A stretch of DNA of 64,000 nucleotides. It comes from Larkinella rosea (GTDB lineage Bacteria > Bacteroidota > Bacteroidia > Cytophagales > Spirosomataceae). The notes beneath the pieces were generated by a model, which was not told the origin of the DNA, searched no databases, and saw only the letters and a list, made by a program, of their open reading frames with translations. Shown here piece after piece: positions 34,803 through 52,276 of the stretch (its first letter is position 1; every line of letters begins with the position of its first letter). The translations under genes and the position numbers were made by a program. Location of the stretch: positions 62,001 through 126,000 of the forward strand of contig NZ_RQJO01000016.1 in NCBI RefSeq assembly GCF_003858635.1, given 5' to 3'.

Positions 34803-34866
34803 GAAAGATAATATCACAAATACATAGAGAAGTAGAAGAAAGCGGGAACCTCAGAAGTTAGCTTTG
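34803..34866 (+). promoter_or_regulatory. Island regulon promoter, copy A (upstream of 34919 operon)
   Basis: Positions 34803-34838 match the 36-bp element upstream of the locus 3 SusC gene at 29 of 36 positions (for example ATCACAAATACA and AAGTAG). Exactly 20 bases later comes TAGCTTTG (34859-34866), a perfect TAnnTTTG -7 box; no -33 TTTG is present, as expected for an activator-dependent promoter. The ATG follows 53 bases after the -7 box. Confidence 0.8.
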
Positions 34867-34918
34867 TAAAATCAGTGTCTGCAAAACTAACATCGTAAAT
34901 CGACCACAACCCGCTTGC

Positions 34919-36745
34919 ATGAAATCTGAAAACAAGAAAAACCGCCGGGATTTTTTGCGCAGCGGTTTACTCACCGCCACCACAGCACCGCTCCTACCGA
35001 ATCTTTTAGCAACAGCACCGACCAACCGGCCGGACGCTGCCCCGCCCAAAAAAAACGCGCTGGATAATCACCGCAACCTGTTCAACGGCGATACCTGCGT
35101 CTATTTTTACAACCCCGAACTCTGGCAACCGGAAGATTATGCGCTGAAGACCGTCGCCAATCCGCGCACCGGCAAGATGGGCACCAAACCGGTGGCAGTG
35201 GGCGGGCCGTTTAAGGCCAAAGCCATTCACCGCTACGTGGATGTATTGGCCGACAACGGAATCGACACGTTCGTGATCAACGCCAACGCCAACCGCGCCT
35301 GGTATCCGAGCAAGAAAATCCCCAGCATTCTCGACGGTTACAAGCGCGGGGATCGTAATTTTTTTCGCGGACACGCCATTTGTCAGGGCATTACGGAACC
35401 CGAAGCCGTCGAAGAATTTCTCGATAACTTCTCGCGGTTCATGGATCGCTACCAGGACCTGATCGACGCGGGCGTAGACTGGCTGGCCGAAACGTCCAAA
35501 GCCTGTCGGCGCCGGAAAATCTCGCCCTGGGTCAGCATCCGGATGAACGACATGCACGGCAGCCGGAACGTGGAAGGCAGTTTTTTCAATTTGCCGCTGT
35601 TTAAGAAAGACGAAATGCGGCTCAAACATGCGTCGTACGGGTTGCAGAACGCGCAGGACCGAATTGGCTTGAATTACGAAAAACCGGAGGTTCGCGCCCT
35701 GATGTTCGAGCAGATTCGGGAAGTGGTGGAGGATTACGATTTCGAAGGCCTGGAACTCGACTGGTGGCGGCAACCGCTGTGTTGTGAACCCGGCGCATCG
35801 CCCGAAACCGTCGCGATGATGAATGACTGGTTTCGCCAGATCCGGGCGCTCACCCAGCGCCAAGCCAAGAAAACCGGAAAACCGTATCCGTTCGGGATGC
35901 GGATTCCCGGCGCACTGGGCCCGCTGAAAGAGATCGGGGTGGATGTAGTAACGCTGTGTCAGGACGGAACGCTCGATTTTGTGATTCCGGGCGGTTTCTG
36001 GCCCACGACCTGGGACATGCCCCACGACGAGTTTCGGAAACAACTCGGCGGCCGCGTGGCCATTTACGGGTCCATCGACGACGGAGCCAATTCGCTGCCG
36101 ACGCAAAACGAATCGGGAACCGTCAAAGAGCGGATGCGGTACATCGGCGCCAGTCCGGCGATTGAACGCGCCAACGCGGCCGGTAAACTGGCGATGGGCG
36201 TCCACGGCATCGAATGGTTCAATTTTTTCTGTTCGGATCAGCCCCTCCAGTCGGGCATCCGGGCCGATTATACGGCCCTGCGCGACATTCATAAACTGGA
36301 TTTCTTGCGGGGAAAACCGAAACACTACTGTTTCAGCACCGCCGGAGCTTTTTTTAATCCGACTCCGTTTGAGTTGCCTGCCCAGATGCCCGCCAGCATC
36401 GGCCCGTTTGCGCAACGCCCGTTTAAATTGGCGATGTGTGCCGAACCTGCCAATCAAAATCTGGAAGTGGTGGTGCAAGTGGTGCTCAAAGCAGACGACA
36501 AACCCGCTCACCTGCCGGTTTCCATTAACGGTTGCTGGCCGAATCTCAAAAACGAATCGACCGGCAAACTGCTCCTTCCCTGCGGTTCGCTGACGCACTT
36601 GACCAAAGACCATGTGGGTTACAATTACCGGTTTCCGGTTTCGCTCATCGCCGACGGCTGGAACCAGATTGTCGTTGAAAACCAAAACAAAGACCTGATT
36701 ACGGTGGCCGCCATTGAAATTGCCATCCTGCCCAAAACGGCTTAA
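34919..36745 (+). CDS. Exported TIM-barrel glycoside-hydrolase-like protein
   Basis: A 608-aa protein with a Tat-type signal (NRRDFLRSGLLTATTAPLLP). Residues about 60-450 look like a TIM barrel of the GHL10/family-10-like putative glycosidases: DNGIDTFVINANANRAWYP, SPWVSIRMNDMH, FEGLELDWWRQPLC (acidic pair on a strand end) and GVHGIEWFNFF. The last 130 residues are a beta-rich domain. It heads an operon with the sugar-acid dehydratase and dehydrogenase. Substrate unknown. Confidence 0.75.
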   Translation: MKSENKKNRRDFLRSGLLTATTAPLLPNLLATAPTNRPDAAPPKKNALDNHRNLFNGDTCVYFYNPELWQPEDYALKTVANPRTGKMGTKPVAVGGPFKAKAIHRYVDVLADNGIDTFVINANANRAWYPSKKIPSILDGYKRGDRNFFRGHAICQGITEPEAVEEFLDNFSRFMDRYQDLIDAGVDWLAETSKACRRRKISPWVSIRMNDMHGSRNVEGSFFNLPLFKKDEMRLKHASYGLQNAQDRIGLNYEKPEVRALMFEQIREVVEDYDFEGLELDWWRQPLCCEPGASPETVAMMNDWFRQIRALTQRQAKKTGKPYPFGMRIPGALGPLKEIGVDVVTLCQDGTLDFVIPGGFWPTTWDMPHDEFRKQLGGRVAIYGSIDDGANSLPTQNESGTVKERMRYIGASPAIERANAAGKLAMGVHGIEWFNFFCSDQPLQSGIRADYTALRDIHKLDFLRGKPKHYCFSTAGAFFNPTPFELPAQMPASIGPFAQRPFKLAMCAEPANQNLEVVVQVVLKADDKPAHLPVSINGCWPNLKNESTGKLLLPCGSLTHLTKDHVGYNYRFPVSLIADGWNQIVVENQNKDLITVAAIEIAILPKTA

Positions 36746-36763
36746 AATCTGCCGAACCGATTG

Positions 36764-38020
36764 ATGAAAATTACCGACGTTCAAACGATATTATTGACGG
36801 GTCCCTGCACCGGCGATCCGTTTCTTTCCGAAGCCCGCCAACTGCGGTCGGCGGCTTTTATCCGCATTGAAACCGATGCCGGAATCACCGGGCTGGGCGA
36901 AACCTACGCCGGTTATTTTTTCCCGGAAGGCGTGCCCGGTATCGTGGATTTTTTCAAACCGATTCTAATCGGCAATACCGTCGATGACATTCCCGAACTC
37001 TGGCGACGGATGTACCAGTGCGGCAATTTCTGGTGCCGCGTGGGCCTGGGAGCCATCGTACTGGCCGGGATCGAAGCCGCCCTCTGGGACCTGAAAGGAA
37101 AGGCGCTGGGTGTACCGGTTTACAAACTGCTGGGCGAAAACTGGAAAGGTGGTTTTCCCGAAACCAAAGAAAATCAGTTTGTTGCTCAGGGTCAATTGCC
37201 CGCTTATGCCACGGGCGGCCCCAGCAATTATCCGCTGGAAAAACTGGGCGATAAAATTGCGTTTTACCAGTCACTGGGCTTTCAGGGCGTGAAGATTGGG
37301 GCCGGAGCGTATTGGAAAGAGACCGGCTTTGCGGTTTCCATCGACCCCGCCGAAGCTGCCGATCTGGAAGCCACCAAAGCCGCCTACGTCCGCCAGCAGT
37401 TTGGCAACGACCTCCGACTGCTCTTCGACGCGCACATGGGCAACAGCCCGACGCTGACCTGGGGACTCGAAACCGCCACCGCCGTGGCCCGCGCGCTGGA
37501 ACCGTACAACCTGTTTTTTCTGGAAGAACCGCTGCACTACACCCGCCCGGATTTATACGCCGAACTGCGCCGGAACACCAAAACCGTGATTGCCGGGGGC
37601 GAATGCCTGACGGCAGTTTGCGAATGGCAGACATTCATCGAGCAGGATAGTTTCGGCGTTGGCCAGCCGGATGCGTCGTTTACGGCGGGGCTGGATCAAT
37701 TCATGCAGGTGGCTTCGAGTCTGGCGCAGCGCGGGCAGCACATTGCGCCCCACGCCTGGGGGGCGGGCGGTTCGCAGATGCAGAACATTCACGCCGGTTT
37801 TGCCTGCCCGAACACGGTTATTCTGGAAGTGGCCCCGGCGTATGGGCCGCTGCACAGCGAAGTAATCGGTGACAGTTTGCTGCTAAAAAACGGCTTCGTG
37901 CAGCGTCCCGAAAAACCGGGTCTGGGCATTGAGCTGACCGACGAAACCATCCGCCGGTTTCCGTTTGTTCCCGGTACCGGCGAATTCAACAGCGTTCCCG
38001 GCAAAATCCTGACGACCTGA
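36764..38020 (+). CDS. Enolase-superfamily sugar-acid dehydratase (MR subgroup)
   Basis: A 418-aa cytoplasmic enzyme of the mandelate racemase/muconate lactonising family. Metal ligands: Asp222 (LLFDAHMGN), Glu254/255 (FFLEEPL) and Glu280 (AGGECLT). Catalytic dyad: Asp303 (GQPDASF) and His330 (APHAWGAG). The D-x-H at 222-224 resembles galactonate and mannonate dehydratases, so dehydration of a sugar acid is likely. The usual KxK on strand 2 reads KIG (GVKIGAG). ATG 36764 is used instead of the TTG one codon earlier. It is 18 bases after the preceding gene. Confidence 0.88.
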   Translation: MKITDVQTILLTGPCTGDPFLSEARQLRSAAFIRIETDAGITGLGETYAGYFFPEGVPGIVDFFKPILIGNTVDDIPELWRRMYQCGNFWCRVGLGAIVLAGIEAALWDLKGKALGVPVYKLLGENWKGGFPETKENQFVAQGQLPAYATGGPSNYPLEKLGDKIAFYQSLGFQGVKIGAGAYWKETGFAVSIDPAEAADLEATKAAYVRQQFGNDLRLLFDAHMGNSPTLTWGLETATAVARALEPYNLFFLEEPLHYTRPDLYAELRRNTKTVIAGGECLTAVCEWQTFIEQDSFGVGQPDASFTAGLDQFMQVASSLAQRGQHIAPHAWGAGGSQMQNIHAGFACPNTVILEVAPAYGPLHSEVIGDSLLLKNGFVQRPEKPGLGIELTDETIRRFPFVPGTGEFNSVPGKILTT

Positions 38021-38026
38021 AAAACC

Positions 38027-39040
38027 ATGCTGAAGGTATTGATTGACATGCCGGTGTATGAACCGGTGCTGCGGCAGTTGCAACAAACGCCGGGTATTTC
38101 GGTGGAAGTGGTGGCGCAGCCGGAAGAAAAAGTGCGGCCTTTGCCGCTGAGCCAGATTCAGGATTGCGACGTGTTGTTTTGCACCTTCCTGCCCGAAAAC
38201 CACGAAGCGATGACGCGGCTGAAACTGGTGCAGATCAGTTCGGCGGGGTATAGTCAATTGTTCGGCAAAAAGCTGGTGGAGCGGGGCGTTCGGGCGTGTA
38301 ATTCGCTGGGTGTGTTCGACATACCGATTGCCGAATGGAACATCGCGATGATGATCAATCTGGCGCGGGATGTGCGCGGGCTGATTCGGAATCAGGAAAA
38401 CCGCATCTGGGATCGGTCGGCACGGTTTCAGAAAGAAATCCGCGGATCGGTCGTCGGCATCTGGGGTTATGGCGGTATTGGCCGCGAAACCGCCCGGCTG
38501 GCGAAAGCCCTCGGCATGACGGTTCACGTGCTGGTTCGACAGGAAATTCAGAAACGGAATACGGTTTTCTGCGTCCCCGGCACCGGCGACCCCGACGGCA
38601 CATTCCCTGATCGGATTTTTTATGGTCACGAAAAAGAAGCGTTTCTGAACAGCCTCGATTTTCTGGTGATGGCCGTTCCCCAAACCGCCACCACCACGGG
38701 AATCATGGGCGAAACTGAACTGCGAATGCTGAAACCCACGGCTTTTGTGCTGAATCCGGCGCGGGGTCCTCTGATTCAGGAACAAGCCCTGATTCGCGCG
38801 TTGGAAGAAGGCTGGATTGCAGGGGCCGCGCTCGACACGCATTATTACTACCCCATGCCGCCGGATCATCCGCTCTGGGCTCTCCCCAACGTGATCCTGA
38901 CACCCCACATTTCCGGTTCCAGCCTAAGCCCCCGGTTTTTAGAACGGGTTTCCACTATTTTTTTAGAAAATGTCGTGCGGTTTTCAGCCGGTGAACCCTT
39001 GTTGAATGAGCTGACGGTTTCGCAATTGGCGGGGAATTGA
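38027..39040 (+). CDS. D-2-hydroxyacid dehydrogenase family protein with altered active site
   Basis: A 337-aa NAD(P)-dependent oxidoreductase with the Rossmann motif GIWGYGGIGRETARLAKALG and the active-site Arg246 (NPARGPL) and His294 (TPHISG). The third catalytic residue, normally Glu in a D-V-F-E-x-E-P context, lies in the segment DTHYYYP (270-276), where Tyr275 replaces it. It begins 6 bases after the dehydratase, suggesting reduction or oxidation of that enzyme's product, but the altered residue makes activity uncertain. Confidence 0.88.
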   Translation: MLKVLIDMPVYEPVLRQLQQTPGISVEVVAQPEEKVRPLPLSQIQDCDVLFCTFLPENHEAMTRLKLVQISSAGYSQLFGKKLVERGVRACNSLGVFDIPIAEWNIAMMINLARDVRGLIRNQENRIWDRSARFQKEIRGSVVGIWGYGGIGRETARLAKALGMTVHVLVRQEIQKRNTVFCVPGTGDPDGTFPDRIFYGHEKEAFLNSLDFLVMAVPQTATTTGIMGETELRMLKPTAFVLNPARGPLIQEQALIRALEEGWIAGAALDTHYYYPMPPDHPLWALPNVILTPHISGSSLSPRFLERVSTIFLENVVRFSAGEPLLNELTVSQLAGN

Positions 39041-39047
39041 TGTCTAA

Positions 39048-39190
39048 CAGCCCACGGTTTTAACCGTGGGAAACCGAAAATGGGCATGGTTTTTTTGAAC
39101 CGTTTTAACGGTTTTGAGGGACAGAAACCGTTGAAACGGTTTGTATAAACGCCGTTTTTGCTAAGAACCCACGGTTAAAACCGTGGGCTG
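39048..39190. repeat. 143-bp nested palindromic element with 23-bp terminal inverted repeats
   Basis: CAGCCCACGGTTTTAACCG.. at 39048-39070 is the exact reverse complement of 39168-39190. Each arm is itself nearly palindromic (CCCACGG..CCGTGGG), and the interior carries two more palindromes, GAACCGTTTTAACGGTT and AAACCGTTGAAACGGTTT. This is a REP/BIME-like arrangement without coding capacity. Confidence 0.8.
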
Positions 39191-39234
39191 GTAAAATAAA
39201 ACGAACGAGAGGTTGTCTGACTACTCTCCGAAAT

Positions 39235-39260: not shown

Positions 39261-39271
39261 GGAGAGGAATA

Positions 39272-39697: not shown

Positions 39698-39736
39698 TAA
39701 AATCAGTGTAGTTCTGTTTGAATGCAGAAGTTTGTA

Positions 39737-39808: not shown

Positions 39809-39830
39809 CGATATTCATTAGGCGAATGAT

Positions 39831-40526: not shown

Positions 40527-41303
40527 TCAGGCATTTAGCCCGCCGTCCATCAGAATATTTTCACCATTGATGTAGGCCCCGGCCTGCGATGCCAGCAGCA
40601 CGATCAATCCCTTGATGTCGTCGTTGTTGGCCATGCGTCGCAACGGCACTTTTTTGGTGTAATTTTCCAGAAACCGCTCCGGCTGGTGGTTGAAAAGGCC
40701 GCCGGGACTGATGCAGTTGACCCGCACGTTTTTGCCCGCCAGCACCTGCGCCAGGTATTTCGTCAGGTTGAGCAAACCCGCGTTGTGGAAGAAATAATCG
40801 GGGGGCGGGGTACCCATCGTCGTGCCTTCGTAATTAGATAAATCCGGGCCGTACATGCCCATCATCGAACCAATATTGATGATACTGCCCCCACCCGCCT
40901 GCACGATCAGATCGGCCATTTCGCGCAGGATATCCATCGACCCGGTGGCGTTGACCCGCATCGATTCCGCAAAATCGGCCATCGGGCCATCGTAGCCTTT
41001 CATCGGGCGCGAAACCGCATTGTTGACGAACACATCCAGTCGGCCGAATTGGGAGAGAATCTGCGCTTTCAGATTTTGTACGGAAACCGGATCGCCCTGA
41101 TCGACTTGAAGGGCGTGAACATCCAGTCCGTTCGCCCGAAACCGGGTTGCCACTTCCTCACTCGTTTCCAGATTTCGGGAAGCAATGATCACCGTGGAGC
41201 CGGCTTCGGCCAGCCCTTCCGCAATGCATTTTCCGTAGTTCCCGGCGCCACCCGTCACCAGACTGACTTTTGTTTTTAAGCTAAATAACTCGTTGATATG
41301 CAT
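40527..41303 (-). CDS. Short-chain dehydrogenase/reductase
   Basis: A 258-aa SDR oxidoreductase: NAD(P)-binding VTGGAGNYGKCIAEG, NNAVSRP on strand 4, the catalytic Ser in INIGSMMG, and the C-terminal NGENILMDGGLNA. At the catalytic Tyr/Lys position the segment reads FFHNAGLLNLTKYLAQ, so a standard YxxxK is not obvious (N-A-G-L-L-N-L-T-K keeps the Lys). ATG 41303 is used; the upstream frame opens with a TTG. It is the last gene of the 11-gene operon. Confidence 0.87.
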   Translation of the reverse strand: MHINELFSLKTKVSLVTGGAGNYGKCIAEGLAEAGSTVIIASRNLETSEEVATRFRANGLDVHALQVDQGDPVSVQNLKAQILSQFGRLDVFVNNAVSRPMKGYDGPMADFAESMRVNATGSMDILREMADLIVQAGGGSIINIGSMMGMYGPDLSNYEGTTMGTPPPDYFFHNAGLLNLTKYLAQVLAGKNVRVNCISPGGLFNHQPERFLENYTKKVPLRRMANNDDIKGLIVLLASQAGAYINGENILMDGGLNA

Positions 41304-41317
41304 GAGGTTGTTCGCGT

Positions 41318-42274
41318 TTAGTTTAACCAGCCCATCCGATCCCAATACGGCAAATCCAGAAATGCAGGATCAGGAAACGCCAGGGCTTTTGCCCGCGCCA
41401 TTGTTTCGACGCTGAGATGCGGGCCATTAATGGACGCCAGCGACTGATTCAAATAGTCCTGATTATCAATGCCGACCAGCAGGGATGAAACAGCCGGAAA
41501 GGACGCGACAAACCGGATGGCCAGGGTCGACAAATTCGGAAAACCGGTTTGGACCAGTTCATCGAACCGGCGAAGGTGGTTTTCGACATTGGCCAGGGCC
41601 GGGTGCAGTTGCTGGCCTTTGCTCGTCAGCAAGCCTTTGAGCAACACCGAACGCACTACGATTCCGACGCCATTTTCGGCCGCCTGGTCAAACAGAGCCG
41701 CCTGCCGCTGGTCCATCAGATTGAACGGCAGTTGAACGACATCCCAGACGCCGGTTTCAATGGCTTTCCGGGTTTCTTCGACCGCATACGTGGAGACGCC
41801 CATGCTCCGAATCGCGCCCTGGGCCTTTAAATCGGTGAAAATCCGGGCGATTTCGTCGTTCTCCAGAATGCCCAAATCAGCCTGATGGAGCATGTACACA
41901 TCGACGTAATCCGTCTGCAAGGCCGTCAGGCTCTCCAGCAACGAGGTTTTGATGATCTTTTTCAGCGTAGCGCCATCCGGCAAATCGCCGTTCGTGTCCC
42001 GCAACTGACGGCATTTGGTTTCCAGAATTACCTGCCCGCGCCGGTCCTGAAACGCTTTGCCCATGATGGTTTCGCTGTTGCCATAAAGCCGGGCCGTGTC
42101 GAAAAAGTTAACGCCCGACTCGATGGCGGTGTGCAACAACTGAACGGCTTCCGATTCCGTAATCATGTCGGCCTGGCTCTTGACGCCAATGCCGTACGGC
42201 ATTCCGATTTCGACCCCTCCAAAAGCAAGTTCCGAAACCGTAATTCCGGTTTTTCCCAATGGCTTTTTTCTCAT
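41318..42274 (-). CDS. Aldo/keto reductase
   Basis: A 318-aa cytoplasmic NADPH-dependent reductase: KTGITVSELAFGGVEIG, NFFDTARLYGNSE (Asp and Tyr of the tetrad), the catalytic Lys in VILETKCRQ, and VDVYMLHQADLG (His). The ATG shares one base with the TGA of the aldolase gene upstream, so translation is coupled. In this setting it may reduce the aldehyde released by the aldolase (inference). Confidence 0.9.
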   Translation of the reverse strand: MRKKPLGKTGITVSELAFGGVEIGMPYGIGVKSQADMITESEAVQLLHTAIESGVNFFDTARLYGNSETIMGKAFQDRRGQVILETKCRQLRDTNGDLPDGATLKKIIKTSLLESLTALQTDYVDVYMLHQADLGILENDEIARIFTDLKAQGAIRSMGVSTYAVEETRKAIETGVWDVVQLPFNLMDQRQAALFDQAAENGVGIVVRSVLLKGLLTSKGQQLHPALANVENHLRRFDELVQTGFPNLSTLAIRFVASFPAVSSLLVGIDNQDYLNQSLASINGPHLSVETMARAKALAFPDPAFLDLPYWDRMGWLN

Positions 42275-43080
42275 CACTTATAACCGCCCTGCGCCGGTTG
42301 AGCGGCCGTGACGTCGTTGTTGAATTTGCTGACCAGACCGTGACAGTAGTTGCTGATGCCCACGACATCGGCCCCGACATTGATGAATTTGTAACCCAGC
42401 GAAATAAACTCTTCCAGCCGGTCGATGGGTCCGGTGGTGGCGGCAAACTTGCCGTGTCTGATGCACGCTTCAGCGACGCGTTTCCGGGCATCCACCAGCC
42501 GGGGGTGGTTCCACTCGCCGGGTGCCCCGATGGCCTGACTGAAATCGCCGGGGCCGAAAAACAGCATGTCCACGCCGTCGAGAGCGGCAATTTCGTCCAG
42601 CTCGTCGAGCGGTTCGGGGTCTTCGATCTGAAGCCCTACAAACCGCTGGCGGTTGGCTTGCTCGAGGTAATCACTGAACGCCATGTTGGTATAAGCGCCG
42701 TCGGCATTGCCGCCGTCGATGGCGCGCAGGCCCTGTGGATGGAACCGGGTCATTTTCACCACGTTCTTCGCATCTTCCACGCCCATGCAGTGCGGCACCA
42801 GAATACCGCTGGCGTCCAGTTCAAGCGGTCTGACGTAGTCGCTGTAACTGCCGCGCGGCACCCGCACCATGATGTCGGCCTGCTGCGATTTGGTGGCCCA
42901 GATGTGGGAACTCACCACCGACCAGTCCTGCCCCTGGTGTTCCTGGTCGATCCAGATGCAGTCAAAACCGGTCATCGCCACCAGTTCCGACACTTGTGCG
43001 TCACCAATATTTACTTTAAAACAACTGACCACTTCGCCAGCTCGTAACTTCTTCAAAACCCGGCTTTCGCGCATGTTCAT
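42274..43080 (-). CDS. HpcH/HpaI family aldolase
   Basis: A 268-aa class II (metal-dependent) aldolase of the HpcH/HpaI citrate-lyase-beta-like family. Key parts: DCIWIDQEHQGQDW, the metal ligands Glu and Asp in FVGLQIEDPEPL and LFFGPGDFSQAIG, and the Arg in ADIMVRVPRG. These enzymes cleave 4-hydroxy-2-oxo acids to pyruvate and an aldehyde. A second Met two residues in is an alternative start. It stands just upstream of the aldo/keto reductase. Confidence 0.92.
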   Translation of the reverse strand: MNMRESRVLKKLRAGEVVSCFKVNIGDAQVSELVAMTGFDCIWIDQEHQGQDWSVVSSHIWATKSQQADIMVRVPRGSYSDYVRPLELDASGILVPHCMGVEDAKNVVKMTRFHPQGLRAIDGGNADGAYTNMAFSDYLEQANRQRFVGLQIEDPEPLDELDEIAALDGVDMLFFGPGDFSQAIGAPGEWNHPRLVDARKRVAEACIRHGKFAATTGPIDRLEEFISLGYKFINVGADVVGISNYCHGLVSKFNNDVTAAQPAQGGYK

Positions 43081-43103
43081 GGTAAAATCTGTTTTCCGTT
43101 TCG

Positions 43104-44060
43104 TTATACCCGCTTCAATTGCATCGGATAGGCTTTATTCGCATTCCATTGGCAAACATACACATTCTCGTCCGCGTCGATGCATACGTCGTGCGGATGA
43201 ACAAAAACCGGTTGTTGCTGGAATTGGGTCTGTAAGTTTCCGTCGACATAAACCGGTTCCGTTCCTCCCGGTGTCGAGATTACGCGGTCGTTTTCGTCCA
43301 GAACGGTGATGTAGCCCGAGCCGAAATTCCGGTTGGTCGTCGACCGGAAAACCGCAGCAAAAACAAACCGATCGTGCAAAACCGGTCGGCAGACGAAGGA
43401 ACCAGGCAACGGAATGGTCGCCAGGTATTTCCCGTCCAACGTAAAGCGCTTCAGAACATTATCGTTCCGGGATGTGATCAGCAAGGTTGGTTCGCCCGGT
43501 TTTCGGGTGTCGAGCGCAATGCCGTGAACGCAGTCGAACTGCTCGTTCGCGCTGCCCCGTCCGCCCCAGTGCCGGATGTATTCGCCCTGCGGAGTGTACT
43601 GGATGACATACTGCAAACCGTAGCCGTCGGTGACGTAAATGTCGCCGGTGGGGCCAATAGCGGTTTCGGTGGGCATAAACTGCTCCGCCGACGTATAGTG
43701 ACTGATTTCCTTCGGATAATCGATGGTCATCACCACCCGCCCCTCCAGCGTCGTTTTGATGACCTGATGGCGTTCAATATCGGTGATGAACAGAAACTCG
43801 TCGCCGTTTTCGTTGCTTAACGTCAACCCGTGGCCGCCGGGATACTCCGTTCCCCACGCATCCAGCCGTTTCCCGGAGCGGTCGTAGATCAGGATGTTGT
43901 TGCGGGTTTCGTTGGTCAGCATGAAAATCCGGCCTTGGGCGTCGAGCTGCATTTCGTGGCAATCGTTCACCGGATGCGTCGCCGGATTCAGGTTTCCCCA
44001 GTCCGGGAAAACCCGATACCGGTGGGTGTTGTGACCAATAACGGTGTTCGGGTCGCTCAT
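43104..44060 (-). CDS. NHL-repeat beta-propeller protein (cytoplasmic)
   Basis: A 318-aa protein with about six repeats of the NHL type, for example HEMQLDAQGRIFMLTN, ETAIGPTGDIYVTDGYG, HGIALDTRKPGEPTLLITS and HDVCIDADENVYVCQWN. There is no signal peptide. It may be a lactonase-like or binding propeller; no catalytic assignment is possible. It starts 1 base after the PhyH stop. Confidence 0.85.
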   Translation of the reverse strand: MSDPNTVIGHNTHRYRVFPDWGNLNPATHPVNDCHEMQLDAQGRIFMLTNETRNNILIYDRSGKRLDAWGTEYPGGHGLTLSNENGDEFLFITDIERHQVIKTTLEGRVVMTIDYPKEISHYTSAEQFMPTETAIGPTGDIYVTDGYGLQYVIQYTPQGEYIRHWGGRGSANEQFDCVHGIALDTRKPGEPTLLITSRNDNVLKRFTLDGKYLATIPLPGSFVCRPVLHDRFVFAAVFRSTTNRNFGSGYITVLDENDRVISTPGGTEPVYVDGNLQTQFQQQPVFVHPHDVCIDADENVYVCQWNANKAYPMQLKRV

Positions 44061-44061
44061 T

Positions 44062-44808
44062 TTACGCGGTTTCAGCCTGGAGTTTCTTCTGGTAAGCTGC
44101 CTTGGCTTCGGTGTCTTCCTGCGCCGATGCCGCCCAGTAAATCCAGCCGAGCGCCTTGCGCGTGCGCTCGCTGCGGTTGGCTTCCGCCCAGTGAATGGTC
44201 ATCGAATGGTGAATGAGCAAATCACCGGCTTTGGCCGGAAACGCCACGGCTTTGGCCTGATCGTCGTCGGTCCAGAAATCCGTAATGCCCTGCGAAAAAC
44301 CGAGCGTCTGCGTCCGGCCGTGCGGGCGAACGCCGTGGAGGTGCGAACCGGTCACGTACCGAACGCAACCGTTTTCGGCATCGACATCTTCCAATGCCAG
44401 CCACATGGTAGCGGCTTCGGCCGGTTTCAGCATGAAGTAGTAATTGTCCTGGTGCGGGGGAGTCGGTTTGCCAATGCGGGGCGGTTTGTTGAAATATTCC
44501 AGCGTTTTGGGAATCACCGCGTCATCGAGCAGCAGTTCGGCCAGTTGCTTGAACTTACTGTCGTTCAGCATCTTGTCGAAATACGGATCGTATCGCTGCA
44601 TATCGATCAACTGCTTCAGGGTCGTCGGATCATTCTTATCCTCGTAAAAGATGTGCCCCCAGGGCATGTCGGCCACCTGACTGGCGATAAAATGCTGGAC
44701 TTTGTCGTTCAGTTCACTTACTTCTTCGGCGGATAAAAAACCGGGCAGAAAAACGTAGCCATTGGTTCGAAACGACTCTTTCAGGGCTTGGGTGTCGATT
44801 GTTTCCAT
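44062..44808 (-). CDS. Phytanoyl-CoA dioxygenase (PhyH) family protein
   Basis: A 248-aa Fe(II)/2-oxoglutarate dioxygenase. The iron ligands are His119 and Asp121 (PPHQDNYYF) and His206 (HHSMTIHWA); Arg217 probably binds 2-oxoglutarate. Length is typical. PhyH proteins hydroxylate diverse small molecules; here the substrate is unknown, but a hydroxylation step before the aldolase encoded downstream would make chemical sense (inference). Confidence 0.92.
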   Translation of the reverse strand: METIDTQALKESFRTNGYVFLPGFLSAEEVSELNDKVQHFIASQVADMPWGHIFYEDKNDPTTLKQLIDMQRYDPYFDKMLNDSKFKQLAELLLDDAVIPKTLEYFNKPPRIGKPTPPHQDNYYFMLKPAEAATMWLALEDVDAENGCVRYVTGSHLHGVRPHGRTQTLGFSQGITDFWTDDDQAKAVAFPAKAGDLLIHHSMTIHWAEANRSERTRKALGWIYWAASAQEDTEAKAAYQKKLQAETA

Positions 44809-44852
44809 CGGGATTTGAACAGTTTTGTATACAGTTGACCCGGTTTTCGGGC

Positions 44853-46199
44853 TTATTTTTCAAGCAGTTCGGCCAGTTTGGTTCGGATGGCCTCTTCGGC
44901 GCCCGGTTCCAGAAAACTGGTTCGGCAGCGCCAGGTTTCGTAACCGCCCCGTTCGATTTCGTGCGCGGGCGGAATGTAACCGATGTAGCCGTTCGCCATC
45001 GTGATCGTAAAATACGGCGAGCGGTTTTCCTTGAGCCGCAACCCGGTTTCGGCAAAAAACTCCCCGCCCAGCGCGCCAATCTGGCCGTCGCCAATCCGGA
45101 TGGCCTGCACCGGAAACACATTGATGTCCGGGTAGTCGTTGAGCAACACCTGCTCGCGGGCGTAAATCCGGCGCAGCACGTCCATATCCAGGTGCTGAAT
45201 GTTTTCGTAATGCGTTTCGGCCACCAGCAAGGTAGCCGCTTCCAGTTCTTCCGCCGACGGTTTTCGGACACCGGTTTCCACGTCGGCGTATTGCGCCGAC
45301 AAAACCGGATTGTCCTGCCAGTCAATGGTTTGCAAGGCTTCGAAGACCTTTCCGGCAATGGCCTTGCCGATCAAATCGCTTTTGGCGAAATGTGCCTTCG
45401 GGTAGCGGTCCGGGTCCAGAAAATCCCAGATGTTGGCTTCGCCACTGGTGCCGTTGCTCATCATCCCGACGAAGGCCGGGCCCGCATTCAGCAAGCGGCC
45501 GATTTCGTTGGAAAACACACCGAAATAGTCGGCGGTAATCGTGCCGTTTTCCCAGTCGCCGACATAATGCAGCGAGTAATTCGCCAACAGGCTAATCCAC
45601 TGATCGTCCGATCCTTTTACCGCCAGAAAGCCAACTTGTGGATCAACGGGAACCACGCGCCGGTCGATCTGCTGTTCATCGCCAAACGGATTGGTTTTCA
45701 CACCGTCGACTCCCCCGCTGACGGGATTATGCGCGACATAGCCTTCTTTCATGAAAAACCGCCGACAAACGACGTGTTCCGGTACGTCCACCGCCCCGAA
45801 TCCGATTTTAGCCGGACGCAAATTTTGCGAAGCCATTTTAACGGATTCCACGAGTAAACCGGGCAGTTTTTGGCGATACGGCAAATCGGCTGCGCCCAGC
45901 AAGAGGCTGGCAATGGAACCGGCCGCGTGCGTGTGCGTGCTGGCAATCAGTACATTCTGGGGCAAAAGACCGGTTTCGTCCTGAATCCTGATTTTGACCG
46001 CATCCAGAAAATCCCGAGGCATGGCGCAGATATCGACAATCACCAGCGCCACCCGCGTGTCGCCCTGTTGCAAAACCAGCGCTTTGGCGAATAAAGGATC
46101 GTGGATAAAACGGGCGTAATGAGTAATGAAATCGCCGTTGATCAACGTTCCCAATGGGGGCGTAATGTCCACCTGAGCCGCTCCGGCTTGAAAAGTCAT
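44853..46199 (-). CDS. Neutral/alkaline ceramidase-like N-terminal-domain hydrolase
   Basis: A 448-aa protein matching the N-terminal catalytic domain of neutral/alkaline non-lysosomal ceramidases: AAQVDITPPLGTLINGD, ALVIVDICAMP, STHTHAAGS (His zinc-site region) and MMSNGTSGEANIWDF. It lacks the C-terminal immunoglobulin-like domain of true ceramidases and has no signal peptide, so it is probably a cytoplasmic metal-dependent amidase acting on another substrate. Confidence 0.88.
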   Translation of the reverse strand: MTFQAGAAQVDITPPLGTLINGDFITHYARFIHDPLFAKALVLQQGDTRVALVIVDICAMPRDFLDAVKIRIQDETGLLPQNVLIASTHTHAAGSIASLLLGAADLPYRQKLPGLLVESVKMASQNLRPAKIGFGAVDVPEHVVCRRFFMKEGYVAHNPVSGGVDGVKTNPFGDEQQIDRRVVPVDPQVGFLAVKGSDDQWISLLANYSLHYVGDWENGTITADYFGVFSNEIGRLLNAGPAFVGMMSNGTSGEANIWDFLDPDRYPKAHFAKSDLIGKAIAGKVFEALQTIDWQDNPVLSAQYADVETGVRKPSAEELEAATLLVAETHYENIQHLDMDVLRRIYAREQVLLNDYPDINVFPVQAIRIGDGQIGALGGEFFAETGLRLKENRSPYFTITMANGYIGYIPPAHEIERGGYETWRCRTSFLEPGAEEAIRTKLAELLEK

Positions 46200-46225
46200 A
46201 GTTCGTTCGGTTTTAGGGTCGGTTC

Positions 46226-46287
46226 ACCGCTGTCAGGGTCTTTGGCCGCTGACAGGGTGTCGCACGGTCAAAGACCCTGACAGCGGT
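46226..46287. repeat. Perfect 19-bp inverted repeat inside the operon
   Basis: ACCGCTGTCAGGGTCTTTG (46226-46244) is the exact reverse complement of 46269-46287, with 24 bases between. It lies in the 95-base gap between the dipeptidase and ceramidase-like genes and would fold in the mRNA. No T-run follows, so it is not a normal terminator. Confidence 0.75.
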
Positions 46288-46294
46288 CAAAATT

Positions 46295-47377
46295 TTATTT
46301 CCAGGCCCGGCGCAAAAACCGGAGCCAGTTTCCGTGAAAAATATTGTCGATATCCGATGGCTGATAGCCTCTTTTTTCAAGTATCGTCTCGTATTTCCGC
46401 AAATCGGCAATCGAGTTCATGTCCCAGGGCGACTGCTCGGTGCCGAAAATACCGTCGAGGTCGCTGCCAATGGCGACGTGATGACTGTTACCGGCAATCT
46501 GGCAGATGTGATCCCAATGGTCGACGAGGTTTTCGAGCCGGATGTCCAGTTGCCAGGGGTCCGAAACCGTATCGATAAACCGGATGTCCATCGCCCAGCA
46601 GTCCAGCATCCCGCCAATGACTGCATCGCGTTCAATGAGTTGTTTAATCTGTTCGTCCGTGAGTTGGCGCTGGTTCGGAACGATTTTTCGGACGTTGTGG
46701 TGACTGGCCCAAACCGGTCCCTGGTATAATTCCATCACCTGCTCAAAGCCTTCGTCGGTCAGGTGCGTAACGTCCAGAATCAGGTTGAGTTTGCCCATTT
46801 CGTTCAGTAAATCCAGTCCCAGGGGCGTCAGCGGGCCCTCCATCTTCGTGCCCGGCGCATACCGCCCCGGTCCGAAATGCGACAGCCCCATCGCCCGCAA
46901 GCCGTAGTCATAAGCCCGGTGCAAATACGAACTATCGACCAGCGAATCCGCCCCTTCCAGACTTAAAATATAGCCGATGGCTTTCGTCTCGTCCGGTATT
47001 TCGGTGTTTTCCCAAAGCGCCAAATGGGTTTCCAGTTCGGTCAAATTGGTGATCTGCACCATTTCGCCGAGGGCTTCCATTTCGCGGTACCAGACCAGTT
47101 GGGCCTGCGTCATGGCCCAGGCCTGCTGGGGCGAATGCCAGCCGGGCAGCGCGCTCCCCGGCGGAGTCACCCGCGACAGTTGCGTGGCCACCACCAGCCC
47201 AATCCCGCCCTTCCGCAGTTCGGGCAAACAAACCGTGCCCCGGCCCCGGTCGGGCTTGTCTTTCATTCCCATTTCCCGTTGCCGGATTTCGACCAGCGGG
47301 CGCGACAGATCCCGGTTCCATTCCAGCGCGTTCATCGCCAGATCGAGATGGGCGTCAAAAATCAATCGTTTTTTCAT
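46295..47377 (-). CDS. M19 (renal-dipeptidase-like) membrane dipeptidase family protein
   Basis: A 360-aa metallopeptidase of the amidohydrolase fold. Zinc motif His10-x-Asp12 (FDAHLDLAM), the bridging Glu in ILSLEGADSL, and later His in LILDVTHLTDEGF and WASHHNVRK. There is no signal peptide, so it acts in the cytosol, cleaving dipeptides, D-amino-acid conjugates or a lactam. Its ATG overlaps the preceding gene by four bases. Confidence 0.9.
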   Translation of the reverse strand: MKKRLIFDAHLDLAMNALEWNRDLSRPLVEIRQREMGMKDKPDRGRGTVCLPELRKGGIGLVVATQLSRVTPPGSALPGWHSPQQAWAMTQAQLVWYREMEALGEMVQITNLTELETHLALWENTEIPDETKAIGYILSLEGADSLVDSSYLHRAYDYGLRAMGLSHFGPGRYAPGTKMEGPLTPLGLDLLNEMGKLNLILDVTHLTDEGFEQVMELYQGPVWASHHNVRKIVPNQRQLTDEQIKQLIERDAVIGGMLDCWAMDIRFIDTVSDPWQLDIRLENLVDHWDHICQIAGNSHHVAIGSDLDGIFGTEQSPWDMNSIADLRKYETILEKRGYQPSDIDNIFHGNWLRFLRRAWK

Positions 47378-48339
47378 TGCACAACCGGCTGTTTACGAAT
47401 CGGTTGCGGCACTTCGGCGTAGTCAAACGGATACTTGCTGATCAGGTCGCGAATCTGGTGGCTAAACTCCCGAAACGATTCTTCCCACTGCTCGGCTTCG
47501 TCTTTTTTGTACGCATAAAATCCTTTTTCGGTTACCATTCCCAAACCGCCGTCCTGCACGATTTCGTTGAAAAACCGGGGAACATGGCGGGCTTTCGACA
47601 GTTCAGGAAACAGATCCTGCATCACCACGCCGTAAATGAAGGTGCCCATCAAATCCATGTACCGGAAATTGCCCGAAAACGGCAGGTAATAACCGGGATC
47701 GTTCCGGCAGGCGCGGTCGACATCCTCGACGGTCACGTAGCCATTTTCCACCAGGTAAAACGCTTCCCGAATCATGGCGCACAACAGGCGCGTTCGGATA
47801 CCGTTGTCGTTGCGAACCACATACGGGTCTTTTTGCCAGACCAGTTTGGCCGTCGTATAAAACGCATTGACCTGGCGGCTGTCCGTTTTATCATTGGCAA
47901 TAATTTCCAGAAAATAAGTTGTATCGGCGGGAATTGTCCAGTTGACGCCAATGATCCGTTCCGGGTTGGAGGCCTCCTGCTGAAGCGTGCTGAGCGGAAT
48001 GCTTTCGGTATTGATGGCAATCAGCGCATCGGACGGAAGAACCGCTTCCAGTTGCCGGATCAGGGCTTTTTTCTGAACCTCATTTTCATCCGTACAGGCA
48101 ATCACCTGGCTAAAATCGGCGGCTTCGTCCAGCCGGTCGATTACCGTCAAAAACCGGTCTGATGAATTGATTTCCAGTTGATTCGGCGAAACCGGCGCAC
48201 TCGCAGGGTTCTCAAACCGACTGTCGGCACAGACCGTAACCGGGTGGCCCGCCTGTCGTAAACAGTTGACAATTCCGGTCGTCAGTTTGCTCCAGCCCGT
48301 GACGAGGATCGGTTCTCTTTCAGGTGATGTATGACTCAT
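47374..48339 (-). CDS. Degenerate 3-hydroxyacyl-CoA dehydrogenase paralogue (probable pseudoenzyme)
   Basis: A 321-aa protein homologous over its full length to the intact enzyme at 49717-50694 (shared REAFYLVENG/REGLHLVENG and EKGFYAY/AKGLYDY regions). The nucleotide-binding GLGLMG reads GWSKLT here. Aligned active-site positions are changed: Ser124 to Glu112, His145 to Asn133, Asn196 to Thr183; only the Glu (145) is kept. The reading frame is intact and ATGA-coupled to the dipeptidase gene, so it is probably expressed with a non-redox role. Confidence 0.85.
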   Translation of the reverse strand: MSHTSPEREPILVTGWSKLTTGIVNCLRQAGHPVTVCADSRFENPASAPVSPNQLEINSSDRFLTVIDRLDEAADFSQVIACTDENEVQKKALIRQLEAVLPSDALIAINTESIPLSTLQQEASNPERIIGVNWTIPADTTYFLEIIANDKTDSRQVNAFYTTAKLVWQKDPYVVRNDNGIRTRLLCAMIREAFYLVENGYVTVEDVDRACRNDPGYYLPFSGNFRYMDLMGTFIYGVVMQDLFPELSKARHVPRFFNEIVQDGGLGMVTEKGFYAYKKDEAEQWEESFREFSHQIRDLISKYPFDYAEVPQPIRKQPVVQ

Positions 48340-48408
48340 AATTCAGGTGTGTTAAAACGCGGGGAACACGTACGCTTCGACGTTCTGCACTTATTTCCGG
48401 TTTTCCAA

Positions 48409-49707
48409 CTATAGATTTCCAAGCACTTCGCGGGCCGTTTCGATGGCATGGTCGATGTCGGCTTCGGTATGGGCGGCACTGATGTACCACAGCCCCCGGC
48501 CAATGACCCGAACGCCTTTGTCGTGCATACCCGCAATAAATTTGCCGAGTTTCGCCTTGTCATACGACAGCGTATCCCGGTAATCGGTAACGCTTTCCAG
48601 ATTGGTAAACCCGGAATGGAACATCGGCCCGAGGCCCTGTACCTTCAGATTCTGACCGGTTTCGGCGGCTGCCTGCCGCAAACCCGCCATCAGTTTCTGA
48701 CCAAACCGGTACAGCCGCTCGTGTGGTTGATCGCGCTCCAGAACCTGAATCGTGGCCAAGGCGGCTGCAATGGTCGGATTTCCGGCGTTCATCGTCCCCG
48801 CGTGAATGACCCTGGCTTCTTCGATCAGGCGCATCCAGTCGTATTTACCAACAATGGCGCTGATCGGATACCCGCTGGCGATGGCTTTGGCGAAAATGGA
48901 CAGATCGGGCGTGATGCCAAAATAATGCTGCGCCCCCCGGAGCGAAACCCGAAAACCGGTGATCACTTCGTCGAAAATGAGGGCGATCCCGTATTCATCG
49001 CAGATGTCGCGCAAGCCCTGCAAAAAACCGTCTTTGGGCAGAATGCAGCCGTTGTTGCACATAATCGGCTCGGTAATGATGGCGGCCAGTTCGTGGTGGT
49101 GTTCGGCAACGGTTTTTCGAACCAGTTCCAGATCGTTCCACGGCAGAATCAGGAATTCGTCGCGGGCGTTGTCGGCCAAACCGGCGCTCCAGGGATACGC
49201 ATTCGGAGACTCCCGATCGCCCAAGGCGTCGGCGGAGGGCTGCGAAAGCCCCCACGCGACGTTATCCAACCAACCGTGATAATGGCCTTCAAAACGGAGA
49301 AATTTGGGTTTGCCGGTTTTGGCGCGGGCGATCCGAAAAGCGGTTTGCACGGCTTCGGAACCGTCGAGGCAAAACCGCATCAATTCGGCAGAGGGAATCA
49401 GGTCGGCGAGCTTCTCGGCAAGTTCGATTTCCCGGTGGTGTTGTCCGGCAAAGAGCTGGCCTTTTTCGGAATACTCGTTAATGGCCTGCAACACGTCCGG
49501 ATGCGAATGGCCGAGCAACAACGGCCCCTGGCTCAGCGTAAAATCCAGGTATTCGTTGCCGTCGACGTCGTAGATCCGACTTCCTTTCCCATGCGTATAA
49601 AAAATAGCGTGTGGATGATTGTACTTACGAAACTCGGACGAAACGCCCCCGGCCAGTACTTTTTTCGCCCGTTCGAGCAGGGCGGCCGATTCGGTATACT
49701 GTGTCAT
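48409..49707 (-). CDS. Class III PLP aminotransferase (glutamate-1-semialdehyde aminomutase-like)
   Basis: A 432-aa aminotransferase of the hemL-like branch of class III. PLP Lys274 is in IFAKAIASGYPISAI; FDEVITGFR carries the Asp that binds the pyridine nitrogen; GSEAVQTAFRIARA and HYHGWLDNV are also typical. True haem-pathway aminomutases are not found in such catabolic operons, and related beta-amino-acid transaminases have the same features, so transamination of a beta- or omega-amino acid is likely (inference). Confidence 0.88.
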   Translation of the reverse strand: MTQYTESAALLERAKKVLAGGVSSEFRKYNHPHAIFYTHGKGSRIYDVDGNEYLDFTLSQGPLLLGHSHPDVLQAINEYSEKGQLFAGQHHREIELAEKLADLIPSAELMRFCLDGSEAVQTAFRIARAKTGKPKFLRFEGHYHGWLDNVAWGLSQPSADALGDRESPNAYPWSAGLADNARDEFLILPWNDLELVRKTVAEHHHELAAIITEPIMCNNGCILPKDGFLQGLRDICDEYGIALIFDEVITGFRVSLRGAQHYFGITPDLSIFAKAIASGYPISAIVGKYDWMRLIEEARVIHAGTMNAGNPTIAAALATIQVLERDQPHERLYRFGQKLMAGLRQAAAETGQNLKVQGLGPMFHSGFTNLESVTDYRDTLSYDKAKLGKFIAGMHDKGVRVIGRGLWYISAAHTEADIDHAIETAREVLGNL

Positions 49708-49716
49708 TGTGTTGAT

Positions 49717-50694
49717 TTAGCCGATTCGCTGGTCGGTCCGGAACGGATACCGGGCGGCCAATTGGTAAATATCTTTGTTAAAAACCGCAAAGGCTTTGTC
49801 CCATTCCTTCGCTTCTTCTTCGGTATAGTCATACAAGCCCTTCGCGCTCTGCGTTCCCCGGAGTTGCTGATCGACAAGCTGTTGCATTAGTTTGGGAACC
49901 TGTTCGGAGTTCGACAGCAGCGGAAAAAGGCGCCGGAAGATTTCGGGATAATCCTGCAAACCGGTGTAGTCCATCCGCCGGAAAATGCCCATCATCGTGA
50001 TCCAGGAACCGGCATCGTACCGGAACGCTTTGTCGACATCCTCCAGGCTCGCATCACCGTTTTCCACCAGGTGCAGGCCTTCGCGGTAAATGGCGTACAT
50101 CAGCCGGTTGGTGACAAAACCGCGAATGTCTTTCCGCAGCAGTGTGGGTTCTTTTTTCCAGTAATGGGCCAGTTCGAACGCCCAGTTGGCGCGTTCCAGC
50201 GAGGTTTCTGTACCGCAGGTAATTTCCATAAACCGGGTCATGTACGCCGGTTCGGCCCAGTGAATGCCCAAAAACCGCTCCGGATTCGGGACATACTGCT
50301 GCAGCATGCTGATCGGAATGGCCGACGTATTGCTGGCAATGATGGCATCGCTGCTGACCACGTCCGCAATTTTCCGGTAAACGATCTGTTTGATGGCAAT
50401 TTTTTCCGTCACACATTCCAGCACCATCTGACAATCGCTCAGGACGCTATAATCCGCCGAAACCGTCAGTTGGGCCATGTATTCCGCCACCGATTGGGTG
50501 AGTAAATCCGCTTCCTCGCCGTGTCTGATCTGACTTTGAATGCGTTCCGGCGCGTCGGCCAGCTCATCGGGCAGCGGAGCAATCGCTTTCACCGGGTGGC
50601 CCGCCAGCAGCAGAGCCGCCACGATGCTGCTTCCCATCAACCCAAGTCCGACAACGCCTACGCTGATCTCCCTCGTTTGTATAGTCTCATCCAT
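49717..50694 (-). CDS. 3-hydroxyacyl-CoA dehydrogenase family enzyme
   Basis: A 325-aa NAD-dependent dehydrogenase with the intact Rossmann motif VGVVGLGLMGSSIVAALLLAG and all four active-site residues: Ser124 (SNTSAIP), His145 (GIHWAEP), Glu157 (RFMEITCG) and Asn196 (GFVTNRL). Size matches short family members such as 3-hydroxybutyryl-CoA, L-gulonate and carnitine dehydrogenases; without CoA genes nearby a free 3-hydroxy acid is possible. It is the second gene of the operon, 14 bases after RidA. Confidence 0.92.
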   Translation of the reverse strand: MDETIQTREISVGVVGLGLMGSSIVAALLLAGHPVKAIAPLPDELADAPERIQSQIRHGEEADLLTQSVAEYMAQLTVSADYSVLSDCQMVLECVTEKIAIKQIVYRKIADVVSSDAIIASNTSAIPISMLQQYVPNPERFLGIHWAEPAYMTRFMEITCGTETSLERANWAFELAHYWKKEPTLLRKDIRGFVTNRLMYAIYREGLHLVENGDASLEDVDKAFRYDAGSWITMMGIFRRMDYTGLQDYPEIFRRLFPLLSNSEQVPKLMQQLVDQQLRGTQSAKGLYDYTEEEAKEWDKAFAVFNKDIYQLAARYPFRTDQRIG

Positions 50695-50708
50695 TCGCCG
50701 AACCGGTT

Positions 50709-51098
50709 TTAGGCCGGGAGTTTAACAATGCAATCAATTTCTACTTTCAATCCTTCCGCCAGCACCGACTGCACCGTAGTCCGGGCGGGTTTGATGCCCG
50801 GAAAATAACTGGCATACACCACATTGTAGCGATCGAAGTCGGCAATGTCGGCCAGGTGGGCAGTACATTTTACGACATCGTCCATCGTGGCACCCGCCGA
50901 TTCGATGATGGCTTTGATATTGGTCAGGGTCAGGTGGGTTTCTTCTTCAATGGATCCCAGCACGAATTGGGACGTTTTAAAATCAACGGCGGCTTGTCCG
51001 CTAATGAACAGAAAGCCACCGGCAATCACGCCATCCGAATAGGCACCGGTTGCAAAGGCGGGATCGCGGTCGGGGTGGATTACTTTTGTTTTACTCAT
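50709..51098 (-). CDS. RidA (YjgF/UK114) family enamine/imine deaminase
   Basis: A 129-aa protein with the RidA pattern GGFLFISGQAAVD, the substrate-binding Arg in KPARTTVQSVLAEG and EIDCIVKLP at the C-terminus. RidA proteins hydrolyse reactive imine/enamine intermediates released by PLP enzymes, which fits the aminotransferase encoded two genes later. It is the first gene of the 11-gene operon, about 60 bases after the inferred transcription start. Confidence 0.95.
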   Translation of the reverse strand: MSKTKVIHPDRDPAFATGAYSDGVIAGGFLFISGQAAVDFKTSQFVLGSIEEETHLTLTNIKAIIESAGATMDDVVKCTAHLADIADFDRYNVVYASYFPGIKPARTTVQSVLAEGLKVEIDCIVKLPA

Positions 51099-51166
51099 GC
51101 GTGAAAATGCAGTGATAGAATAGAAGGTCGTCGGAGGGCATGCAGTATCGGCCCTCTAATTATCAG

Positions 51167-51230
51167 CAAAAGTAGTCCCGCAAGTTTGCTATTCCTGTTA
51201 CTTTTATCCATATTTCTAATACTATTTTTC
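51167..51230 (-). promoter_or_regulatory. Island regulon promoter, copy B (RidA operon)
   Basis: Read on the minus strand, 51230-51195 matches the 36-bp element at 52213-52248 at 31 of 36 positions (GAAAAATAGTATTA and ATAAAAGTA are identical). Exactly 20 bases later TACTTTTG (51174-51167) is a perfect TAnnTTTG box. A GAGGGC/GCCCTC hairpin (51135-51156) lies in the leader. No -33 TTTG is present. Confidence 0.82.
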
Positions 51231-51301
51231 ATAACTCTTCGCCGAAATCAGGATTTTCGATATACTTACTGACCGGTTTTATCTTCTATGCCCTATTTAC
51301 G

Positions 51302-52171
51302 ATGAAAACAGTTGAATTTCGGTTACCGCAGGAATATGACAAATCTTTTATTGTATTTCAGGAAATTGGCCAATTTTTTCCTTGTCCCTGGCATTATCAT
51401 CCCGAATACGAGCTGGTTCTGGTGTTAAAAAGTACCGGTCGGCGAATGGTGGGCGATCACATCGGTTATTTCGACGCGGGTGATCTGGTTTTTATGGGGC
51501 CGTCGCTGCCGCACGTCTGGGTGAACGATCCGGAGTTTTTCAAGGGCGAAGCCGGTTATCAGGCCGACGCCATCGTGGTGCAGTTCGTCGATGCGTTTCT
51601 GGGCAAGCCGTTCATGGAAATCCCCGAAATGGAAGCATTCCGCAGTTTCCTGCTACGATCCAACCGGGGCATGGTCATTAAAGGTGAAACCCGTGAAAAA
51701 ATAACCGCTCTGATGACCCAAATGCTACCGATGAACGGGCTGCAGCGGCTATCGTCCCTCCTCCAACTATTTGACCTTCTGGCACATACAACTGAATACG
51801 AATACCTGGCGAGCCCCGGTTTTGTGCAGAATACCCAGCTCAAGTCGTCCGATCACCTCCGGAAGATCAACCAATATATAATGCAGAATTTTCAGGAAGA
51901 AATCACATTGTCAGAAATTGCGGGTGTAGCCAATATGGCCCTGACCACGTTCTGCTGTTTTTTCAAGGATCACTACCGGGTCTCGTTTGTCGAATACCTG
52001 AATACCGTGCGTATCGGGTACGCGTGCAAGCTGATTTCCGAGAAGGATCTGAACATTGTGGAAGCCGCCGGTGAGAGCGGTTTTAATAACCTGGCCAACT
52101 TCAACCGGCAGTTCAAAAAAATCAAAAATATGACCCCCAGTGAGTATCGGAGGACGCTAAACGTCGTCTAA
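51302..52171 (+). CDS. AraC family transcriptional regulator with cupin sensor domain
   Basis: A 289-aa regulator. The N-terminal cupin (about 15-110; WHYHPEYELVLVLKS, YFDAGDLVFMGPSLPHVW) senses a ligand; the C-terminal AraC double helix-turn-helix (about 185-285; EEITLSEIAGVANMALTTF, VEAAGESGFNNLANFNRQFK, TPSEYRRTL) binds DNA. It is divergent from the RidA operon and directly precedes the locus 3 SusC gene. Both flanking promoters, and that at 34803, carry the same element, so it is the most likely activator of the island. Confidence 0.94.
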   Translation: MKTVEFRLPQEYDKSFIVFQEIGQFFPCPWHYHPEYELVLVLKSTGRRMVGDHIGYFDAGDLVFMGPSLPHVWVNDPEFFKGEAGYQADAIVVQFVDAFLGKPFMEIPEMEAFRSFLLRSNRGMVIKGETREKITALMTQMLPMNGLQRLSSLLQLFDLLAHTTEYEYLASPGFVQNTQLKSSDHLRKINQYIMQNFQEEITLSEIAGVANMALTTFCCFFKDHYRVSFVEYLNTVRIGYACKLISEKDLNIVEAAGESGFNNLANFNRQFKKIKNMTPSEYRRTLNVV

Positions 52172-52183
52172 ACTTCTTTTCTC

Positions 52184-52276
52184 CCGAAAAATAGTATCGT
52201 TGCTGCTTTTCCGAAAAATAGTATTACAAATACAAATAAAAGTAGCAGAATACAATAGAAACGAAACTTAATTTTG
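52184..52276 (+). promoter_or_regulatory. Island regulon promoter, copy C (locus 3 SusC)
   Basis: The 36-bp element is at 52213-52248, followed by exactly 20 bases and the perfect -7 box TAATTTTG (52269-52276); the ATG is 40 bases further. CCGAAAAATAGTAT occurs twice as a direct repeat (52184-52197 and 52211-52224, 27 bases apart). Within the element AATAGTA and AAAAGTA are 21 bases apart, two helical turns, as expected for an AraC-type dimer on direct half-sites. No -33 TTTG is present. Confidence 0.82.

Follow-up and report, generated by a model that had tools for sequence, protein, structure and literature searches.

At araI1-I2 of Escherichia coli, AraC binds two direct-repeat half-sites, the downstream one of which abuts the upstream promoter box, and activates transcription in the class-II manner. 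The element described here from Larkinella rosea is laid out in the same way, as direct-repeat half-sites with the downstream one at the promoter box. The E. coli system differs in using another sigma factor and another promoter consensus, and the L. rosea regulator resembles the E. coli AraC sensor domain (2arc) only at the level of the fold, with 14% identity.

Further related systems are known from three reports. An AraC regulator acts positively on the carrageenan cluster of another member of the Bacteroidota (PMC5698469), and the predicted motifs of AraC-type L-rhamnose regulators show a 21-bp periodicity (PMC3870299). The latter, the Bacteroides RhaR rhamnose regulon among them, share with the present locus an AraC-family regulator, a catabolic operon and a predicted 21-bp direct repeat. 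The RhaR regulon differs in its gene set, and the motifs of those regulators are described as unique to each group; L. rosea is set apart by having five candidate units in its genome, each with the -7 box at a constant distance of 20 nt. The hybrid two-component regulons of Bacteroides, which control polysaccharide-utilisation loci, likewise combine an AraC-type DNA-binding domain with tandem sites about 21 bp apart, the direct repeats averaging 21 bp (PMC3878776). In contrast, the L. rosea regulator is a 289-aa protein of predicted cupin-HTH type, in which Pfam detected no kinase or receiver domain. We found no distance rule in the available part of PMC11253607 and no account of this regulon among the papers listed by searches of an open-access library; when the literature was searched for a similar set of genes, one unrelated paper came up. 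The architecture is known in kind, the regulon, the motif and the fixed distance being the apparently new part.

The element and its promoters

The window, i.e., the whole 64,000-nucleotide stretch analysed, covers positions 62001-126000 of contig 16 in the 8.17-Mb L. rosea genome. An initial annotation of the window had proposed that three promoters share a 36-bp element, and all three copies were found at the positions and on the strands that it gave (Table 1). The identities it reported, 31/36 between B and C and 29/36 between A and C, were reproduced, and A and B are identical at 25/36 positions. Also as described, the gap between the element and the TAnnTTTG box is exactly 20 nt in A, B and C, AATAGTA and AAAAGTA lie 21 bp apart in copy C, the AraC gene is situated between copies B and C, and none of the three promoters has TTTG at the place generally assigned to the -33 box. 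TAnnTTTG occurs only 24 times in the window on both strands (~1.9e-4 per position), so that three boxes at one exact offset are far from chance. With A and B excluded, no sequence of the window matched copy C at more than 21/36 positions, and the best match per window in 30 Markov-simulated windows ranged from 20 to 24/36. Chance similarity was ruled out by the simulated windows together with the reversed and shuffled controls described below. The predicted 5' leaders are 48 (A), 64 (B) and 35 nt (C) long.

Table 1. Promoter elements, genes and associated sites (window coordinates unless a contig is named; E-values from model R1, see below)
Feature	Position	Strand	Description
Element A	34803-34838	+	Half-sites 34808-34817 and 34829-34838, 21 bp apart; E=3.1e-6
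-7 box, promoter A	34859-34866	+	TAGCTTTG; start predicted near 34871
Operon A	34919-39040	+	Tat-signal-like protein (signal judged by eye) with weak GHL10 match just under Pfam cutoff; MR_MLE (enolase superfamily) protein; 2-hydroxyacid dehydrogenase (Pfam)
Operon B (11 genes)	40527-51098	-	RidA, 3HCDH, class-III aminotransferase, 3HCDH, M19 dipeptidase, ceramidase-like, PhyH, NHL, HpcH aldolase, aldo/keto reductase, SDR (ORFs, Pfam)
-7 box, promoter B	51167-51174	-	TACTTTTG
Element B	51230-51195	-	Half-sites 51225-51216 and 51204-51195; E=2.8e-8
AraC-family regulator, 289 aa	51302-52171	+	Predicted cupin sensor and two-HTH DNA-binding domain
Extra half-site	52186-52198	+	GAAAAATAGTATC; begins 27 bp upstream of element C
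Element C	52213-52248	+	Half-sites 52218-52227 and 52239-52248; E=4.6e-9
-7 box, promoter C	52269-52276	+	TAATTTTG
SusC, SusD, two BNR-repeat proteins	52316-59888	+	Downstream of C; operon extent putative
Site D	C16:127429		1.4 kb past the window end; box at +20
Genes after D	contig 16		BNR, MFS, DHDPS-family, HEAT, Gfo/Idh, SDR and one frame without Pfam match
Site E	contig 14		Box at +20; precedes BNR protein with Tat-like leader

The anatomy of the element was read from 34 sites chosen for a box at +20, with redundant ones dropped. Over offsets 8-25 the correlation between columns in direct orientation was 0.70 at 21, 0.59 at 24 (an overlap of 12 columns) and at most 0.39 elsewhere, which marks the element as a direct repeat of 21 bp. 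An inverted-repeat operator was rejected, as the inverted correlation reached at most 0.44. The spacer between element and box has no conserved column, and no conserved -33 TTTG was found, columns 31-53 holding TTTG in only two of the 34 aligned sites, at columns 40 and 46, respectively. In PMC9723704 the TAnnTTTG -7 box occupies -12 to -5, by which the element spans about -68 to -33. Thus, the downstream half-site ends where the -33 box, at its generally assigned place, would begin. In these sites, preselected for a box at +20, the layout is that of a class-II promoter: a half-site abuts the place of the upstream promoter box, and a good -33 box is missing.

Distribution of the element

We searched the L. 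rosea genome with a pattern of 27 bases from the element, the box excluded, allowing up to 3 mismatches. Seven places matched, whereas the reversed control matched once. Two of the four matches beyond A, B and C, sites D and E, carry TAnnTTTG at exactly +20, and the two boxless ones (C11 and C12) are regarded as chance. The TAnnTTTG sequence of Bacteroidota primary-sigma promoters is thereby present at all five candidate promoters, A to E. Model R1, which was built without Larkinella sites from sites originally found with the own-site matrix, was used to score the best 150 of 2016 first-look candidates. Its top five matches were A to E (4.6e-9 to 4.9e-5), with the next at 0.04, and four of the five strong sites in that set lie within 31 kb on one contig. 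A, B and C were recovered among the top five, and the regulon is larger than the initial annotation had claimed; the many unrelated copies elsewhere that it had named as evidence against its reading were not seen, there being five strong sites among the best 150 of 2016 candidates. The seven pattern matches and five strong sites also rule out an abundant unrelated repeat. The regulon would consist of A to E plus a probable araC operator. A weak partial match (E 0.04) at C16:143656 (L011:17656-17687) lies near a SusC-sized gene beyond the window.

Within the genus, a relaxed pattern with 1 mismatch, of which the box was not part, matched at 34 places across nine genomes, and its reversed form matched once. 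Three of the 34 came without a locus, leaving 31 loci that were read, five own and 26 others. The box stands at exactly +20 in 29 of the 31, and in 24 of the 26 newly read ones, although orthologous promoters of one genus are non-independent. The two exceptions are a near-box, TAATTTTA, and an apparent chance match. A half-site similar, not identical, to GAAAAATAGTATC stands at an equal distance upstream of C in three Larkinella species.

A matrix derived from the five L. rosea sites served to scan 42 AraC-orthologue loci outside the genus (803 kb) and 35 paralogue loci (587 kb), with flanks of at most 10 kb. At threshold 20 it found 45 matches, not all independent as some of the species are closely related, in 28 of the 42 orthologue loci, vs none in the 35 paralogue loci; the reversed matrix gave 0 and 20 column-shuffled matrices a mean of 0.45 (at most 2). 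At threshold 17 the matches numbered 53 and 3, respectively, and 12 of the 42 orthologue loci had no element even at this threshold within the flanks scanned. Among offsets 0 to 79, the box occurred at 20 in 20 of the 45 threshold-20 matches and once each at 8, 21, 61, 69 and 74. The other 25 matches lack a box; 18 of them are araC-adjacent, within 300 nt upstream of the gene, and 7 are elsewhere. An element scoring at least 12 was found upstream of araC in 28 of the 42 orthologue loci, always pointing away from araC, vs 4 of the 35 paralogue loci, by a matrix from 34 sites of which some are themselves araC-adjacent and with lowest scores that may be chance. Two of those four paralogue loci also have a box at +20. 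The araC-side element of other genera mostly lies 55 to 76 nt before araC (range 40 to 249). The element recurs at promoters in the genus and, with its 20-nt geometry, near the AraC orthologue in other genera, and it is weak or missing next to most of the paralogues examined.

The same catabolic genes recur around the AraC orthologue. At 34 boxed sites from other genera, the first downstream gene encodes SusC (9, one only 30% identical), 3HCDH (8), RidA (7, with one place counted twice, as L018 and L210), HpcH aldolase (4), PhyH (1), MFS (1) and others (4). Boxed elements in other genera also precede a glucosamine-6-phosphate-deaminase-like gene (L034 3667-3730) and a sodium-solute-symporter-like gene (L021 19670-19733), and a weak boxed site precedes an iron-type alcohol-dehydrogenase-like gene (L037, + strand, near 11184), the genes being named from their translations.

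Across 150 genomes of the family, 17 contain an AraC orthologue, at 59% or above, and the best match after these stands at 46%. Model R2 was built from the sequences of 34 sites, including those of the genus and of the G024 genome (L018), and favours the box; seven other-genus orthologue genomes (G023, G076, G086, G104, G112, G120 and G123) apparently did not contribute to it. Its best E was 5.0e-7 or lower in all 17 orthologue genomes, 9 of which belong to one genus, and the best of the other 133 was 2.7e-4. Among these 133, thirteen scored a match at E<=0.01. Four of the 13 sites have the box, including one next to an AraC paralogue of 40%, and one of the 13 was not readable. In three genera (g5, g31 and g32), only some members, 6 of 46 by hand count, possess the orthologue together with strong sites. 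A 2-mismatch pattern was uninformative, since it matched 129 of the 150 genomes and the reversed control was frequent too; in the 17 orthologue genomes a hand sum gave 94 matches vs 39 for the control.

The regulator and its candidate targets

The C-terminal two-HTH domain of the AraC protein exceeded the Pfam cutoff (HTH_18, E=2.6e-19), and the structure model shows a helical C-terminal domain. The N-terminus is predicted to be a cupin sensor domain, as is frequent among sugar-type members of the AraC/XylS family. Cupin_2 scored 21.7 bits, under the Pfam cutoff of 27.2, and the predicted structure (pLDDT 78.7, pTM 0.60) resembles solved full-length AraC-family proteins (TM about 0.5-0.6) as well as the AraC and RhaR sensor domains. 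The nearest named orthologues, in Larkinella humicola, L. soli and L. terrae, are 88-91% identical. We aligned the recognition regions of 24 orthologues (that of the window, one from another Larkinella, and 22 drawn from the 42 non-Larkinella ones) with those of 11 of the 35 paralogues. The first region mostly reads NMAxTTFCNFFK in the orthologues, with FCCFFK in two Larkinella-type rows, vs mostly NMSxxxFCRYFK in the paralogues.

Sequence searches of the target genes against Pfam, NCBIfam and PDB returned superfamilies: sugar-acid dehydratase, HpcH/HpaI aldolase, NAL/DapA-type aldolase, D-galactonate-type MFS, SDR and glutamate-semialdehyde-aminomutase-like transaminase. Among the NCBIfam matches listed, no equivalog model scored above its cutoff, and those that passed, for Rid and SusC, were of the subfamily or signature type. 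We name no pathway for this reason. Judged from the gene content, it looks like the breakdown of a sugar acid or a related compound, and such a compound is probably the ligand as well as the substrate of the regulon.

Proposed mode of action and alternatives

The small number of genome sites, the recurrence in the genus and in other genera, and the co-occurrence with the orthologue (17/17 vs 0/133 genomes) support the AraC regulon that the initial annotation had suggested. From sequence, spacing, conservation and co-occurrence we infer with considerable confidence that the AraC encoded at 51302-52171 has the 36-bp element as its operator and is a tandem-bound class-II activator, which would replace the -33 contact at five units and probably regulates its own gene. 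Two AraC monomers would bind in tandem to the direct-repeat half-sites, of consensus near AAWAGTAnnA, which are 21 bp, or two helical turns, apart and lie on one face of the DNA. As the downstream half-site ends at the start of the -33 region, 20 nt before the box, ligand-bound AraC is most likely a class-II activator contacting the sigma factor or polymerase in place of the missing -33 contact, and this contact would account for the fixed spacing. The units that it would co-activate are A, B and C within the window, D a little past its end, and E, which lies on a different contig. Regulator and element thereby appear to switch on a single catabolic programme in soil Bacteroidota. At the SusC promoter, the extra half-site (Table 1) is perhaps the site of a third monomer. 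The frequency of elements upstream of araC at orthologue loci, compared with paralogue loci, suggests autoregulation: in other genera the araC-side element, often without a -7 box, most likely autoregulates araC, and in Larkinella the araC-side copy would also drive the divergent operon.

The neighbouring AraC would be incidental if the element were bound by a different regulator, either an AraC paralogue or a hybrid two-component system. AraC matches at E<=1e-40 do number at least 11 in the genome, 21-bp direct repeats are described for the hybrid systems of Bacteroides too (PMC3878776), and weak elements of similar appearance, some of them boxed, occur at a few paralogue loci. We nevertheless consider a different regulator improbable, because the strongest sites track the orthologue across the family, also inside the three mixed genera, because the element adjoins araC more often at orthologue than at paralogue loci (28/42 vs 4/35, score >=12), and because threshold-20 matches are absent from the 35 paralogue loci. 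It is marginally less probable still that AraC acts as a repressor at these sites. The 18 boxless araC-adjacent elements outside the genus are what one would expect of an autorepression operator; at the target promoters, however, the element ends just upstream of -33, conservation of a -33 box is lacking and the 20-nt spacing is constant, all of which suits activation. Finally, about 1 kb separates B from C, and the two are 31/36 identical, as would be seen if stretches of promoter DNA had recently been duplicated with no regulatory role. Such an origin of the three copies is scarcely credible, since the spacers differ while element and box are alike, and the element is conserved across genera and at unlinked sites.

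The locus offers a concrete, testable list of operator, regulator and targets for an uncharacterised catabolic programme across many Bacteroidota. The rigid 20-nt rule between the end of the element and the -7 box shows a way in which, in this phylum, an activator of the AraC type could stand in for the -33 contact, and might serve to annotate other AraC regulons in it. It is attractive to speculate, albeit tentatively and at somewhat less than even chances, that araC, its operator and several 20-nt target promoters are gained and lost together as a patchy module in Bacteroidota, and that a wider cupin-AraC subfamily (paralogues of about 40-46%) shares the geometry with diverged half-sites. 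If this is the case, operators would be predictable genome-wide from geometry alone. Several paralogous AraC genes (~40-43% identical) are accompanied by weaker, diverged elements with TAnnTTTG at 20 nt, in L223 (near 1500), L069 and L070 (upstream of the AraC gene at 10001), hinting that the wider subfamily may share the 20-nt geometry.
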